64,000 nucleotides of DNA from an uncultured Gammaproteobacteria bacterium (GTDB lineage Bacteria > Pseudomonadota > Gammaproteobacteria > Pseudomonadales > Porticoccaceae): positions 1 through 64,000 of the forward strand of contig CAJXQR010000009.1 in assembly GCA_913058345.1 (NCBI GenBank), in the 5' to 3' direction. Positions 31,731 to 38,290 of this stretch are shown piece after piece; the first letter of the stretch is position 1, and each line of letters opens with the position of its first letter. The position numbers were made by a program, and so were the translations under genes. The notes under the pieces were generated by a model. It was not told the origin of the DNA. It did no database searches and worked only from the letters and a program-made list of their open reading frames with translations.

Positions 31731-32150
31731 TCATGCGCGAGATGACACAGGGTTTTTAACGGTGCCGTCGAGATAACGCCACTGTTGACCTTCACGCTCG
31801 AAGCGACTGCGTTCGTGCAGGCGTTCGGCGCGCCCGTTCACTTTATAAATGGCGACAAATTCCACTTCACCACTGACATCACCGGTCTGTCCGGCAACGG
31901 TATCAATAATTTTCAAACGCTGCCAATTTTGCTGATGACTGCTCAGGTCAATGTCCGTGGGACGAGTTGAGCTGTGCCATGTACGCAGCAGATACTCTTT
32001 ATTGCCCAAGGCATAGGCACTGTAGCGGCTGCGCATCAGGGTCACGGCGCTTGCGGCTGGCTGGTCATTGTTGAGCAGCGGCTGACAACACCGGTTAAAT
32101 GCTTGGCCGGTACCGCAGGGGCAGAGCAGAATTTTCTTTCGTTGGGTCAT
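31731..32150 (-). CDS. ychJ: YchJ-family SEC-C motif protein
   Basis: 139 residues. The N-terminal SEC-C zinc motif (LCPCGTGQAFNRCCQPLL) is followed by the YchJ/NTF2-like domain with LMRSRYSAYALGNKEYLLRT and a C-terminal RYLDGTVKN. E. coli YchJ has an additional C-terminal SEC-C motif that is absent here. Function is unknown. It is upstream of the larger SEC-C gene on the same strand. Confidence 0.88.
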   Translation of the reverse strand: MTQRKKILLCPCGTGQAFNRCCQPLLNNDQPAASAVTLMRSRYSAYALGNKEYLLRTWHSSTRPTDIDLSSHQQNWQRLKIIDTVAGQTGDVSGEVEFVAIYKVNGRAERLHERSRFEREGQQWRYLDGTVKNPVSSRA

Positions 32151-32319
32151 TCTATAACCGGGGTCTCTGGGTCATTGATGTTATATTGGCGAAACCTAAA
32201 AAAGGATGGGGGCATACAGGTTGCGGCTATCTGTCGCTTGCTTTCATCGTGCGAGCTCGCTATGTTGCGGGATTTGCTCTAATTTTTGGTTTTGATGTTT
32301 AGTCTCGAGGAGTTCGGCG

Positions 32320-33765
32320 ATTTTACCCCTTGTCCGTCTTATTGTCCTGCTCGTTACCTTCGTGCAAGTGTCCTGTACCCTGGGGCCGGATTATCAGCGC
32401 CCGCTGACATTAGCAAAGAGTGATTCAGACACGGTTAGTGCCCATTATCGCGGCCCGGCTAGCGAGAATCAGAGCGAGCAGAGCCTGGGTAAGGTGCCAT
32501 CGGAGCAGCTCGACTGGTGGCGTGCCTACAGTGATCCTTTACTTGATCAATGGGTCGACGATTTACTGGCAGACAACCTCGATTTGCGCAGTGCCGCTGA
32601 GCGTATCATTCAGGCTCACGAGCGGGTGGTTATTGCTGGGGGGGAGCGCTGGCCATTAGCGGCTTTCAATGTGGATGGTACTCGTGGTTTTTCCCCAGAT
32701 CTTTTAAAGCCTAGCGAGCGCAGTTATCGAAGCGACGTGAATGTCGGGCTTGGTATTTCCTGGCAGGCTGATCTATTTGGCAAAATCAGACGCTCTGTCG
32801 AAGCGGCACAGTACCAGAGCTTGGCCAACGAAGCCGATTATTTAGCGTTGCAACATACTTTGGTAGCCGAATTAGTGAGGCTGCGGGCATCAGTGGCCGT
32901 TTCCCAGCGCGAGCTCGCAGTGCAGGCGGATATTGTCGACAGCCGTCAGCGTACGCTTGACACGGTGGGACGGCGCTATCGACTGGGGGTGAAAGACACT
33001 TCGGCACTCAGTGTTTATACCGCTGAGGAGAATGTTGCCTCGGCGCAGGCCCAGCTGGTGGTCTTGAATCAGCAGCTAGCAGAAAATCTGCTGGTGCTCG
33101 ATACCCTACTCAATCAGCGGCCGGGCACATTACAAGAGATAGCGACAGACTTCCCCCTTTTACCGCTTTCGGCTGGCGTGACTGTCGGTGTCCCCGCCGC
33201 CCTGCTCGATCAACGACCTGATATTCGTGGCAATGAATTTCGTTTAATGGCCACCAATGCCCAGGTGGGCGTGGCGATGGCTGACTTATTTCCCGATTTG
33301 ACGCTATCTGTTAACGGCGGTTTTACCAGTGACCAATGGGGTGGATTGTTCGACAATAACAACGCTCTCGGCTCGTTGACCGGGCAAATTACAACGCGTT
33401 TATTTGAAGGGGGGCGTTTGCAGGCACAGATTCGACTGCGCGAATCGGAGCTGCGTGAACAAGCCGCGCAATACGCCAAATTAGTACTCAATGCGCTGGC
33501 TGAAGTCGAAACTGCGCTGCTGCAGGAACATTATCTCGCCGAACAAGTTGCTCTCTTGCAGCGCAGTACAAGTGCAGCGCGCAAAGCGGAGGCTCTGGCG
33601 GAGCGCCGTTACCAGCAGGGTATAAGTTCATTGTTAGAGTTGCTGGAAGCTCAGCGGCGGCGACAAAATAGCGAGCGTTCACTGCTCGCGGCACAGCGGG
33701 CGAGCTGGCGCGCACGCATTGATCTCCATCTGGCTCTGGGTGGTGACTGGGTGAACAAATCGTAA
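32320..33765 (+). CDS. Outer-membrane efflux lipoprotein (NodT/OprM type), ATT start
   Basis: 481 residues if it starts at ATT 32320. It is the TolC-like exit duct of a tripartite pump. The N-terminus after the signal, CTLGPDYQRP, is the classic NodT/OprM start with an acylated Cys. Family segments include LDWWRAYSDPLLDQWVDDLL, GISWQADLFGKIRRS and ALLDQRPDIRGNEFRLMATN. The first in-frame ATG/GTG/TTG is GTG 32362, which leaves only four residues before the Cys and no signal peptide. In frame upstream, ATT at 32320 has GAGGAG at 32307-32312 with 7-base spacing and encodes a proper signal (LPLVRLIVLLVTFVQVS). The lipobox is imperfect (Gln at -3). Next: MFP and RND genes. Confidence 0.85.
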   Translation: MLPLVRLIVLLVTFVQVSCTLGPDYQRPLTLAKSDSDTVSAHYRGPASENQSEQSLGKVPSEQLDWWRAYSDPLLDQWVDDLLADNLDLRSAAERIIQAHERVVIAGGERWPLAAFNVDGTRGFSPDLLKPSERSYRSDVNVGLGISWQADLFGKIRRSVEAAQYQSLANEADYLALQHTLVAELVRLRASVAVSQRELAVQADIVDSRQRTLDTVGRRYRLGVKDTSALSVYTAEENVASAQAQLVVLNQQLAENLLVLDTLLNQRPGTLQEIATDFPLLPLSAGVTVGVPAALLDQRPDIRGNEFRLMATNAQVGVAMADLFPDLTLSVNGGFTSDQWGGLFDNNNALGSLTGQITTRLFEGGRLQAQIRLRESELREQAAQYAKLVLNALAEVETALLQEHYLAEQVALLQRSTSAARKAEALAERRYQQGISSLLELLEAQRRRQNSERSLLAAQRASWRARIDLHLALGGDWVNKS

Positions 33766-33834: not shown

Positions 33835-35043
33835 GTGAATCGAATTATAAAATGTCTGAAATCAGAAAACCGACAGCTTTTAGTGGTGGTGTTTATTATC
33901 GTTGCTGCGGTGATGTTGTCGCAGGCTTTCAGTAATAGTCGACAGGTTCTGCACATCAGCGAAGAAGAGTCGCGCTTGCCCGTTAGCGTGGTTGCGGTGC
34001 AAACGGGCGCACATGCCGTCGCTATTACCACGACTGGCCGAGTCGCACCGCGCAACACCGTTGGATTGACGCCTCAGGTGTCCGGGCGCGTGGTGTGGGT
34101 TGACGATAGCCTTTACTCGGGCGGGTATTTTAAAGCCGATGCCGTGTTGTTTCGCATTGAACAGAGTGATTACCTCAATGAACGGGCGAAAGAGCAGGCG
34201 GCGGTGGCAAAAGCGGAAACTAGCCTGGCGCTGGAACAGGCCGAGGCCGATGCGGCCCTCGCCGAATGGCAAGGCCTGAATGGCGAGCTACTCGCGTCAC
34301 CTTTGGTGAGCCGTGAGCCTCAAATTGCCCAGGTGCGGGCCGAATTGGCGGCGGCTCGGGCACGACTGGCACAGGCTGAGCTCAATCTGGCGAGAACAGA
34401 GTTTCGCCTGCCCTTCGATGGCCGGGTGATCAGTAGCTCTCTAGAGTTAGGTGGCTATGTGCAGTCTGGGCAACGTTACGGCGAACTTTACAGTCAGGAG
34501 GCTTTGGAAATTGTTCTCTCGCTACCCAAAAATGATTTGCCGTGGATCAGTCAACCCGGACAGGTTGATATTGCGATTACCTTTGACGCGCTCAAGACCA
34601 ATCGTCAGCATAGTCTTAAGGGCAAAATTTTGCGTATTGGTGCTAGTCTCGATGAAGCTACACGCTTTCAACAGGTGGTGATAAAGCCCATTGACGATGG
34701 TCAATTATTGCCAGGCATGTTGACCCAGTTGGTGTTGAAAAGTGCTCCCGTGCCTGGGACATGGGCTTTACCACTGGCCGCCCTGCAGGCGGAGGGGGCT
34801 ATCTGGTTAGTGGATGAAGACAGCCGTCTGCGTCGCATTGAGCCAGAGATTGTTGCCACTATGGCCGAGAGAGTGATTGTGCTTGCGCCGATGGACCAGG
34901 CCCGCGTGGTTGACAGTAATCTGGGCGGAGCCATTGAGGGAGCTAAAGTGATGGTGGTTGAGGATACGGCCAATAACGGTGCGCTAGGTGGCTTTACAGA
35001 CAGTGCTATCAGCGCCGAGACAGCGGCCGATAGCCATGACTGA
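33835..35043 (+). CDS. RND efflux periplasmic adaptor (membrane fusion protein)
   Basis: 402 residues. A signal-anchor near residues 15-32 (LLVVVFIIVAAVMLSQAF) is followed by the HlyD/MFP barrel-sandwich halves: GRVAPRNTVGLTPQVSGRVV, and LARTEFRLPFDGRVISSSLE after an Ala/Glu-rich coiled-coil hairpin (about 120-180). The beta-barrel and membrane-proximal domains follow. It bridges the inner-membrane RND pump to the outer-membrane lipoprotein. AAAGGAAAG precedes the GTG start. Its stop overlaps the RND start by 8 bases (ATGACTGA). The acidic C-terminal tail (after about 370) is longer than usual. Confidence 0.92.
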   Translation: MNRIIKCLKSENRQLLVVVFIIVAAVMLSQAFSNSRQVLHISEEESRLPVSVVAVQTGAHAVAITTTGRVAPRNTVGLTPQVSGRVVWVDDSLYSGGYFKADAVLFRIEQSDYLNERAKEQAAVAKAETSLALEQAEADAALAEWQGLNGELLASPLVSREPQIAQVRAELAAARARLAQAELNLARTEFRLPFDGRVISSSLELGGYVQSGQRYGELYSQEALEIVLSLPKNDLPWISQPGQVDIAITFDALKTNRQHSLKGKILRIGASLDEATRFQQVVIKPIDDGQLLPGMLTQLVLKSAPVPGTWALPLAALQAEGAIWLVDEDSRLRRIEPEIVATMAERVIVLAPMDQARVVDSNLGGAIEGAKVMVVEDTANNGALGGFTDSAISAETAADSHD

Positions 35044-38000
35044 CCCGAAAGCCGATAAAGGGCCCGATTCGGCTGCTGAGCCGCCAACACAATCGCCGCT
35101 CTCAGGGCATGTGGATGTGCCTTCCGATTCAACGTTGGTGGGTTGGTTTGCCTCCAATCCGGTGGCGGCCAACATTGTGATGCTATTTTTGATCATTGCA
35201 GGGTTTTTAGCTGCTCGGGGCATGATTACCGAAACCTTTCCCTCCATCGATCCGAAAACCATCACCATTGTGACGCCGTATCCTGGCGCGACGCCCTACG
35301 ATATCGAAGACAGCATTACCCGTCGTGTTGAGGAGGGCATGATCGGTATTGAAGGGGTGAAACGGGTGAGCTCTAGCGCCACCGAGGGCGTCGGCAGAGT
35401 AACGGTGGAAATGGAACATTTCGCCAACCCCGCCCAGGTGCTCGACGATGTTGAGACCGAGGTCGATAGCCTCAGCGATTTTCCGCCTCAAGAGGCGGAG
35501 CAAACCTCTATTGTTAAAACCAAGCTGACATCGAGCATGATGTCGTTAGCTGTGTTCGGATCGGTTGACGAGAAAACGCTGCACTACTGGGCAGAGCGCA
35601 TTGAAAATGAGTTATTGCAATTGCCCCAGGTCAGCCTGGTGGAGGTGGCTGGTGGGCGTCGCTATGAAATTGCCATTGAGGTCAGTGAGGCGACTTTACG
35701 CGATTACGGCTTGACTCTGGACGATGTGGCAAGGCGCGTGGCTGAGTTTTCCATCGATATTCCCGGCGGTAATCTGCGCACTGATGCCGGCGATATCTTG
35801 ATTCGCGTTAAGGGTAAGCGCTACACCGGTTTGGCGTTTGAAAATATTACCATCCGCAGCCGTAGTGATGGTGCCCAGCTGCGATTGGGTGATATTGCGA
35901 CTATCCGTGATGGCTTTGAAGATACCCGGCTCATCAACCGCTACAACGGTAAATCGGCGCTATTTGTACAGGTATCGCGCAGTGACAGTCAGGACACACT
36001 GCAAATGGAAGAGGCCATCAAGAGCTACCTGACAAGTCTTAGCTTGCCTCAGGGGCTGTCGATTGAAATCTGGCGTAATAACACTGACATTCTCCGTGAC
36101 AGGATCAGCCTGATGCTGCGCAACGCCATTCTCGGCTATCTGCTGGTGTTTATGTGTCTGTTGTTATTTCTCGATTTAAAACTGGCGTTCTGGACGAGTC
36201 TCGGTATTCCCATTTCTTTTCTCGGTGGCTTATTGCTGGTGTCTTTTACCGGGATTACCATGAATATGATTACCCTTTTTGCCTTGATTGTGGTGATTGG
36301 TATTGTGGTGGATGATGCCATCGTCACCGGCGAAAGTATTTTTCACGAGCAGCAAATGCACCCGGGCGACCCTGCAGCCGTACTGCGCGGCGTGCATTTG
36401 GTTAAAGCGCCGGTCACCATCGGCGTACTCACCACCATTGCCGCCTTTGCTCCGCTGTTAATGTCCACCGGCACGCTGGCTCAGGTGATGCGACCGGTAC
36501 CTTTGGTGGTGATTGGTATTCTCGGTATTTCTTTGATCGAGGCTTTCTACATACTGCCCGCTCATTTGGCCAATACCACAAGCTGGAGTAGAGGCCTGCT
36601 GGCGAAGGTGCGCGATCGTACGCAGGCGGGATTAGAGGGCTTTGTGGAGCGGCGAATTATTCCCGCTATCAAACTAGGGCTGGTCTATCGCTATGCCACC
36701 TTCGCCCTGGCCTGTGCCTCCATCATTATTAGTGTGGGTATCTTCCAGGGTGGTTTTGTACGCTTTGTCTTCTTCCCGCAAATCGATAGTGACCATATTA
36801 CCGTCAGTCTTCAAATGCCCACCGGTACCCCTTTTGAAACGACCTACCACTACGCCGAGCAAATACTTAATGCCGGTGAGGCCATTGCCGCAGAGGTTGA
36901 TGCCAAATATGCCCAGGACGACAAATCGCCACCGCTGATTGAAGCGATCTCTTTTACCGTGGGCAGTCTGGCAGCTGACAGCAACGGGCCGAATTCATCC
37001 AGTGCCGCTGTTAATACAGAAAACCTGGCGCAAATCCGCATGGAGCTGGTGCCGGGTGATCAGCGGCCTATTTCATCGAGCGAATTGGGGCGGCGTTGGC
37101 GCGAGAGAGCACCTTCGATTCCAGGCGTTGAAAGCCTGGTGTTTCGCAGCAACCTGGTACACATGGGGGATGACATTGGCCTGGAGTTGATTCATCGCGA
37201 TGAAAAAACCCTGGCCGCTGCGGCGGGTCAGTTAAAACGGGGATTGGCTACCATTGAGGGCGTGAGTGAAATTGAGGACAGCTTCGAGCTGGGCAAGCGC
37301 GAATATGTGTTCGAACTGACCCCAGCTGGCCTCGCCGCCGGACTGACCCCGAACGATATTGGTCGGCAATTGCGTCGTACCTTTTACGGTGCCGAAATAC
37401 ATCGCATACAGCGTGCTCGCAACGAACTGAAAGTCATGGTGCGTTACCCCCACGCCGAGCGGCGCAACTTGAACGACCTCTATAACGTTCGTCTACGTCT
37501 GCCCAATGGTGAAGAAATGGATTTACGCACCGCCGTGGTGATTCGTGAAGAGCGCGGTTATTCGCGTATCGAGCGGGTTGATGGGCGGCGCATCGTTACC
37601 GTTACTGCCAATGTTGAAGAAAAAACCACCACCCCGGACGATGTTATGGCGGCTTTACAGAAAGATGTATTGCCCCAATTGATGAACGTTTTTCCCGAGT
37701 TGAGTTACGACTTCTCCGGCGCAAGCCGCGACCAGCGCGATGACATGGCCTCGCTAAAAAGCAATTTGTTTATCGCTTTGATGGTGATGTTCGTAATGCT
37801 CGCCTCCCTGCTACGCAGTTATGTACAGCCGCTAATTATTCTTAGCGCCATCCCCTTTGGCTTTGTGGGTTCTCTGCTCGGGCATCTATTACTGGGTTAT
37901 GATATTTCATTTATCTCCCTGTTCGGCATGGTCGCTCTGTCGGGGGTGGTGATCAATGATTCAGTGGTCTTGGTCGACTACTACAATCACCTACGTAAAA

Positions 38001-38290
38001 ACGGACAGAGTAATATTCCAGAAGCGCTGGTCGAAGCAGTGGCAAGGCGTTTTCGCCCCATTTTGTTAACCACCATGACCACCAGCTTTGGCTTACTGCC
38101 TATGCTGATGGAGACCAGCCTGCAAGCACGTTTTTTAATTCCCATGGCAGTGAGCATCGCCTTTGGTATTCTCTACGCCAGTATTGTGATTATCTTTTTA
38201 GTACCGGCGCTTATTGTTATTGTCGATGACTTTAAGCGACTGGGGCGGGGTGTGAGGCAGAGCGTAAAGGTACGCGCTGAAGCTTTGTGA
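35036..38290 (+). CDS. RND efflux transporter permease
   Basis: 1084 residues. It is a proton-driven inner-membrane pump of the AcrB/HAE superfamily. There are twelve membrane segments in the expected 1+5+1+5 pattern with two large periplasmic loops. Evidence includes FPSIDPKTITIVTPYPGATP near the N-terminus, the proton-relay segment LIVVIGIVVDDAIVTGES in TM4 (two adjacent Asp) and a second-half copy FGMVALSGVVINDSVVLVDY. The sequence is closer to the ACR_tran forms that export metals, lipids or unknown small molecules than to AcrB itself, so the substrate is not assignable. The N-terminus has about 50 extra hydrophilic residues (Pro/Ser/Asp-rich). It overlaps the adaptor by 8 bases. Confidence 0.93.
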   Translation: MTDPKADKGPDSAAEPPTQSPLSGHVDVPSDSTLVGWFASNPVAANIVMLFLIIAGFLAARGMITETFPSIDPKTITIVTPYPGATPYDIEDSITRRVEEGMIGIEGVKRVSSSATEGVGRVTVEMEHFANPAQVLDDVETEVDSLSDFPPQEAEQTSIVKTKLTSSMMSLAVFGSVDEKTLHYWAERIENELLQLPQVSLVEVAGGRRYEIAIEVSEATLRDYGLTLDDVARRVAEFSIDIPGGNLRTDAGDILIRVKGKRYTGLAFENITIRSRSDGAQLRLGDIATIRDGFEDTRLINRYNGKSALFVQVSRSDSQDTLQMEEAIKSYLTSLSLPQGLSIEIWRNNTDILRDRISLMLRNAILGYLLVFMCLLLFLDLKLAFWTSLGIPISFLGGLLLVSFTGITMNMITLFALIVVIGIVVDDAIVTGESIFHEQQMHPGDPAAVLRGVHLVKAPVTIGVLTTIAAFAPLLMSTGTLAQVMRPVPLVVIGILGISLIEAFYILPAHLANTTSWSRGLLAKVRDRTQAGLEGFVERRIIPAIKLGLVYRYATFALACASIIISVGIFQGGFVRFVFFPQIDSDHITVSLQMPTGTPFETTYHYAEQILNAGEAIAAEVDAKYAQDDKSPPLIEAISFTVGSLAADSNGPNSSSAAVNTENLAQIRMELVPGDQRPISSSELGRRWRERAPSIPGVESLVFRSNLVHMGDDIGLELIHRDEKTLAAAAGQLKRGLATIEGVSEIEDSFELGKREYVFELTPAGLAAGLTPNDIGRQLRRTFYGAEIHRIQRARNELKVMVRYPHAERRNLNDLYNVRLRLPNGEEMDLRTAVVIREERGYSRIERVDGRRIVTVTANVEEKTTTPDDVMAALQKDVLPQLMNVFPELSYDFSGASRDQRDDMASLKSNLFIALMVMFVMLASLLRSYVQPLIILSAIPFGFVGSLLGHLLLGYDISFISLFGMVALSGVVINDSVVLVDYYNHLRKNGQSNIPEALVEAVARRFRPILLTTMTTSFGLLPMLMETSLQARFLIPMAVSIAFGILYASIVIIFLVPALIVIVDDFKRLGRGVRQSVKVRAEAL

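Follow-up and report, generated by a model that had tools for sequence, protein, structure and literature searches.

A probable AUU start codon, retained within one genus, on the outer membrane channel gene of an RND efflux operon

The first gene of an RND efflux operon in the window (the whole 64,000-nucleotide stretch of DNA that was analysed) encodes an outer membrane channel of the NodT/OprM type, and its translation appears to begin at an AUU codon. We give a probability of about 0.75 to the reading that this is a genuine start codon, retained in the genus, which would keep channel synthesis low and open to discrimination by IF3. AUU serves as a start codon only very rarely, infC being the best-known case. 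Comparison of sequences gives the place of the start, its conservation, the operon and the ATT start of infC in the same genus; repression by IF3, the low yield and a dosage purpose are what we infer beyond them.

The channel gene and its operon

The window belongs to a draft genome of 3.53 Mb in 22 contigs, whose host is described as a marine-type bacterium. The operon begins with the channel gene and continues with the genes for a periplasmic adaptor and an RND permease (Table 1). The first-pass annotation had taken the channel for an efflux outer-membrane protein of the NodT type, and this identity is borne out by a score of 319.7 bits against TIGR01845 over residues 13-475, where the curated cut-off is 210.05. 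The open frame from 32296 to 33765 that holds the channel protein also matches Pfam OEP. Four paralogous channel genes in the window's genome all have ATG candidates.

Orthologues of the channel gene are found in six of the seven genus genomes, the window's genome included; only G003, a genome 82% complete, gave no match. The six are 78.2-91.9% identical in protein and 74.5-88.1% in DNA. Among the named records the nearest orthologue is in a Porticoccaceae MAG (85% identity), and the remaining four named records of the genus are labelled Cellvibrionales or Gammaproteobacteria. The adaptor gene has a GTG start with AAGGA in all six. The gap between the channel and adaptor genes is 213 bases in G004 (locus L038) and 56 to 85 bases in the other five, the larger gap corresponding to an insertion of about 130-160 bases.

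Table 1. Features of the channel gene, its start region and its neighbours (positions in the window)
Feature	Position	Strand	Remarks
YchJ-like gene	31731-32150	opposite	upstream neighbour of the channel gene
Promoter-like element, TTGCTT, 17 bases, TATGTT	32238..32266	+	putative; weak consensus match, conserved core
In-frame TGA opening the reading frame	32293..32295	+	present in 5/6 genus orthologues
Shine-Dalgarno GAGGAG	32307..32312	+	AGGAG invariant; AAGGAG in 4/6 orthologues
ATT (AUU) start codon	32320..32322	+	probable start; identical in 6/6 genus orthologues
Lipoprotein signal peptide, 18 codons, (M)LPLVRLIVLLVTFVQVS	32320..32373	+	predicted; hydrophobic in 6/6; Arg6 in 3/6
GTG, earliest in-frame standard start	32362..32364	+	too late for a signal peptide
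Predicted acyl-acceptor Cys, TGT, Cys19 counted from ATT	32374..32376	+	aligned to Cys1 of mature OprM
Efflux outer membrane factor, NodT/OprM type, 481 aa	32320..33765	+	TIGR01845 and Pfam OEP
Periplasmic adaptor, same operon	33835..35043	+	GTG start with AAGGA; TIGR01730 above its cut-off
RND permease (ACR_tran)	35036..38290 (start about)	+	likely ATG start, overlaps the adaptor's end

The start codon

The reading frame is opened by a TGA and holds no ATG, GTG or TTG between that codon and the GTG at 32362, four codons ahead of the Cys codon; both points agree with the first-pass annotation. Gene callers restricted to ATG, GTG and TTG would place the start at this GTG. In a phmmer comparison Cys19 aligns with residue 1, a Cys, of mature OprM, and by coordinates the mature start of the OprN and CusC chains coincides with Cys19 too. 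Since Cys19 is the counterpart of the first residue of the mature OprM chain, the sequence ahead of 32374 should code for a signal peptide, as had been argued from the position of the Cys, and for the same reason the GTG could not begin a functional lipoprotein. The start codon is very probably the AUU at 32320, which indeed follows GAGGAG at a spacing of 7 bases. The leader that results had been called hydrophobic and Arg-containing; the hydrophobic character holds in all six orthologues, and the Arg does not extend beyond three of them. Among 53 largely non-overlapping open frames of at least 120 codons each in the window, this is the only one with a near-cognate codon and a 5-base Shine-Dalgarno match ahead of the first standard start.

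All six orthologues found in the seven genus genomes have ATT at the same codon, with AGGAG and the same 7-base spacing. The proposal of an ATT start gains from this, and to the question whether relatives carry ATG here the answer is that none of the genus orthologues does. The AGGAGTTYNNCGATTYTACC block occurs once in each of six genus genomes and is absent from G003, and the idea that it is a repeated operator was dropped on this distribution. Of the near-cognate codons (ATT, ATC, ATA and CTG) upstream of the lipobox, none but this ATT is common to the six. Invariance of the codon alone is weak evidence, because two of the eight columns with Ile throughout the orthologues, the start column included, have ATT in every one of them. 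Around the codon, at 32304-32327, 18 of 24 positions are invariant, whereas the preceding segment, 32269-32303, has 9 invariant positions out of 35. Leader codons 2, 3, 10 and 11 show synonymous changes only, the other leader codons vary while staying mostly hydrophobic, and Cys19 is invariant. Upstream of the ATT there are residue-changing substitutions at codon -2 (Ser, Leu or Phe) and at codons -5 to -8, and in five of the six the TGA stands at codon -9. Two features of the leaders are unusual, namely a Gln at lipobox position -3 and a lack of positive charge, each in three of the six.

A sequencing or assembly error that masks a standard start would be favoured by the nature of the records, since every assembly is a draft, the MAG label is carried by three of the five named records, and the other two (L037 and L038) come from one sample. 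However, the same codon is present in six genomes from several sources, at DNA identities between the genes of 74.5-88.1%, and a base-call error is practically excluded.

Standard starts do lie ahead of the lipobox in individual genomes, none of them common to the six orthologues. G001 and G006 have a TTG two codons upstream of the ATT, 1 base past AGGAG, and G002 has one five codons upstream, just upstream of AGGAG. In G005 the TGA is absent and the frame is open further upstream, with ATG 19 and 32 codons and TTG 18 and 27 codons ahead of the ATT; these ATG codons are far from the Shine-Dalgarno. Such codons, and the lack of a positive charge in three leaders when they are counted from the ATT, are what would recommend another start, be it an upstream codon that adds an AGG-encoded Arg to the leader, the CTG at 32347 or the GTG at 32362. 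We consider this improbable. The GTG leaves four residues ahead of the Cys and is itself unconserved (codon 15 is GTG, CTA, CTG or GTT), and three of the six have TTA or CTA in place of the CTG. The TTG codons stand 1 base past AGGAG in two genomes and upstream of it in one. In five of six the frame is shut by TGA at codon -9, and no upstream codon is common to all. As in natural AUU-start genes, a standard start compatible with the N-terminus of the protein is absent, and only G005 has a distant upstream ATG or TTG.

Upstream region

The promoter-like element ends 54 bases ahead of the ATT; four of the six orthologues have TTGCAT as its first hexamer. The run GCTNGCTATGTTGC, at 32255-32268 and 52-65 bases upstream of the ATT, is nearly unbroken in the six, with 13 of its 14 positions invariant. 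By its sequence the run looks promoter-like and is possibly also an operator; a transcription start at about 32272 is our guess. A promoter scan did not report 32238-32266, and the single site that it reported is on the opposite strand.

Two further ATG codons were rejected as starts. The one at 32295-32297, in another frame, is absent from the other five orthologues. The conserved one in TATGTTG (32262-32264) lies inside the promoter-like block; it is out of frame in G000 and G001, in frame and closed by TGA in G002, G004 and G006, and within the open frame only in G005. Folding of five 5' leaders gave no structure conserved across them (that of G006, which holds an N, was omitted). A hairpin TTGAGG...CCTCAA ahead of the Shine-Dalgarno was set aside, the local stem being predicted in G001 and G004 and absent from the predictions for G000, G005 and G002.

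Orthologues in sister genera

A survey of 112 family genomes at a threshold of E <= 1e-70 gives 13 with a match, which are the six genus orthologues and seven from two other genera. Near the ATT position, five of these seven have TTG (L013, L014, L047, L048 and L049), although the call for L048 is uncertain (TTG or GTG) and the L049 sequence is truncated by the end of its contig. L013 has its TTG at the aligned position, 7 bases past GGAG. L012 has GTG, with an ATT at the aligned place two codons later and no AGGAG, and L011 has an ambiguous start, ATG or TTG. In six of the seven the 30 codons ahead of the lipobox contain no ATG, and one sister genus, that of the five TTG loci, apparently uses TTG starts. 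Judged from these sequences, a weak start on the channel gene may be present across the family.

The tree comprises the 13 orthologues and three distant rows, with start labels assigned by hand; L011 is unlabelled as ambiguous, and the labels of L048 and L012 are uncertain. The six ATT rows cluster together (support 99/98) and require one change, a value that 0 of 500 shuffles reach. The TTG/GTG group has a support of only 68/32, and a direction of change from TTG to ATT is tentative.

One change on the tree would also suffice if the AUU start were real and served no regulatory use, the codon having drifted to ATT in the genus ancestor and the yield being set elsewhere, by transcription or by the good Shine-Dalgarno. 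Little strength may have been lost in such a drift, since the orthologues of the sister genera also offer weak TTG or GTG codons. This is possible and we hold it less probable than a start retained for its regulatory effect: the ATT has been kept in six orthologues while its surroundings vary (18/24 versus 9/35 invariant positions, as above). Only at the first or third position would a single base change yield ATG, GTG or TTG, and none of the six has such a change.

infC and pcnB in the same genomes

infC scores above its cut-off in six of the seven genus genomes (L050-L054 and L056). In all six it has an ATT 7 bases past GGAG, and the frame holds no ATG, GTG or TTG between the stop ahead of the gene and the conserved N-terminus. 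Callers restricted to standard starts will overlook this gene in the genus or truncate it. Residues 9-178 of the G000 IF3 match a solved IF-3 chain at 3e-67, and with the infC profile this identifies the host's IF3 as a conventional one. By their sequences, cells of this genus appear to use AUU at the classical infC place together with a conventional IF3.

An AUU start in pcnB of the genus was considered as well and is ruled out by an ATG candidate in seven of seven genomes. A second, weaker pcnB-like match (L064, L066 and others) contains stops in G000, G003 and G004 and is free of them in G001, G002, G005 and G006.

Discussion

The channel gene would join, on sequence grounds, a small set of natural AUU-started genes that includes infC, pcnB and S. 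aureus cvfC1. Among the open-licence papers listed, judged by titles and the openings of abstracts, no AUU start on an efflux or outer-membrane gene was recognised. infC of E. coli and other bacteria shares with the channel gene an AUU behind a GGAG-type Shine-Dalgarno, and infC of this genus also has the 7-base spacing. However, infC is an autoregulatory gene of the translation machinery, whereas the gene described here encodes an efflux outer-membrane lipoprotein without autoregulation. The ATT start of Xanthomonas infC is reported to be supported by peptides (PMC5559785).

pcnB of E. coli is described as having an AUU start outside infC, held to limit yield (PMC9410913), but the proteins are unrelated and pcnB of this genus has its ATG candidates. 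sigR of Streptomyces is described as repressed via IF3 from its GTC, as infC is from its ATT (PMC5472188). Like the channel gene it has a non-canonical start with a strong Shine-Dalgarno, stands first in an operon, and has a start conserved within one genus only, and the sigR/rsrA pair is an earlier example of a weak start with an effect on the relative amounts of operon partners (PMC5472188). It differs in starting with GTC rather than ATT, in encoding a sigma factor and in having been demonstrated by experiment (PMC5472188). cvfC1 of S. aureus resembles the channel gene in a conserved AUU within an operon, there with an extended Shine-Dalgarno and a reduced yield, but it is a 61-residue protein with a possible zinc finger, from another phylum (PMC13009471). 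Its AUU start was established by ribosome profiling and reporters (PMC13009471). A strong or extended Shine-Dalgarno seems to aid weak start codons (PMC5472188, PMC13009471). OprM, OprN and CusC are of the same family as the channel, with a pump context and a mature chain that starts where Cys19 lies (the Cys at the mature start being seen in the OprM alignment), and differ in their start codon; here the channel gene opens the operon.

The following mechanism is proposed. Translation of the channel gene would initiate at the AUU at 32320, where the good Shine-Dalgarno at 7 bases would retain the 30S subunit despite the poor pairing of this codon with initiator tRNA. Such complexes are destabilised by IF3, and because of this the channel would be made at a low rate set by the amount of active IF3 per ribosome, like infC. 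By analogy with infC, pcnB, sigR and cvfC1, the ATT codon probably keeps translation low, as the first-pass annotation had suggested. Sensitivity of the start to IF3 is likely on general grounds. The product would carry an 18-residue type II signal peptide and be acylated at Cys19.

The likely use of a weak start would be one of dosage, preventing an excess of the channel over the adaptor and permease. The RND pump has three channels to six adaptors, so fewer channels are needed, and a channel surplus may harm the barrier. This purpose is a guess with a precedent, to which we would give even odds. L002, another channel gene in the window's genome, has an ATG and lies ahead of what appears by eye to be an adaptor gene. 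It is an apparent counterexample to the dosage idea, and it also weakens the notion that weak starts generally follow from placing the channel gene first.

The number of documented natural AUU starts is small, and gene callers that accept ATG, GTG and TTG alone disallow them; here such a caller would cut the signal peptide off a membrane channel. AUU starts are recognisable from comparison alone, and the channel gene offers a case outside the translation machinery for testing IF3 control beside infC of the same genome. A speculative and rather unlikely extension is that the AUU couples the RND pump to IF3, such that channel synthesis would rise together with that of IF3 when IF3 is limiting or disturbed. 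If so, the pump would follow how translation initiation is faring with no sensor dedicated to the task, and ribosome-directed inhibitors may disturb the action of IF3 on the 30S subunit and thereby raise channel synthesis.
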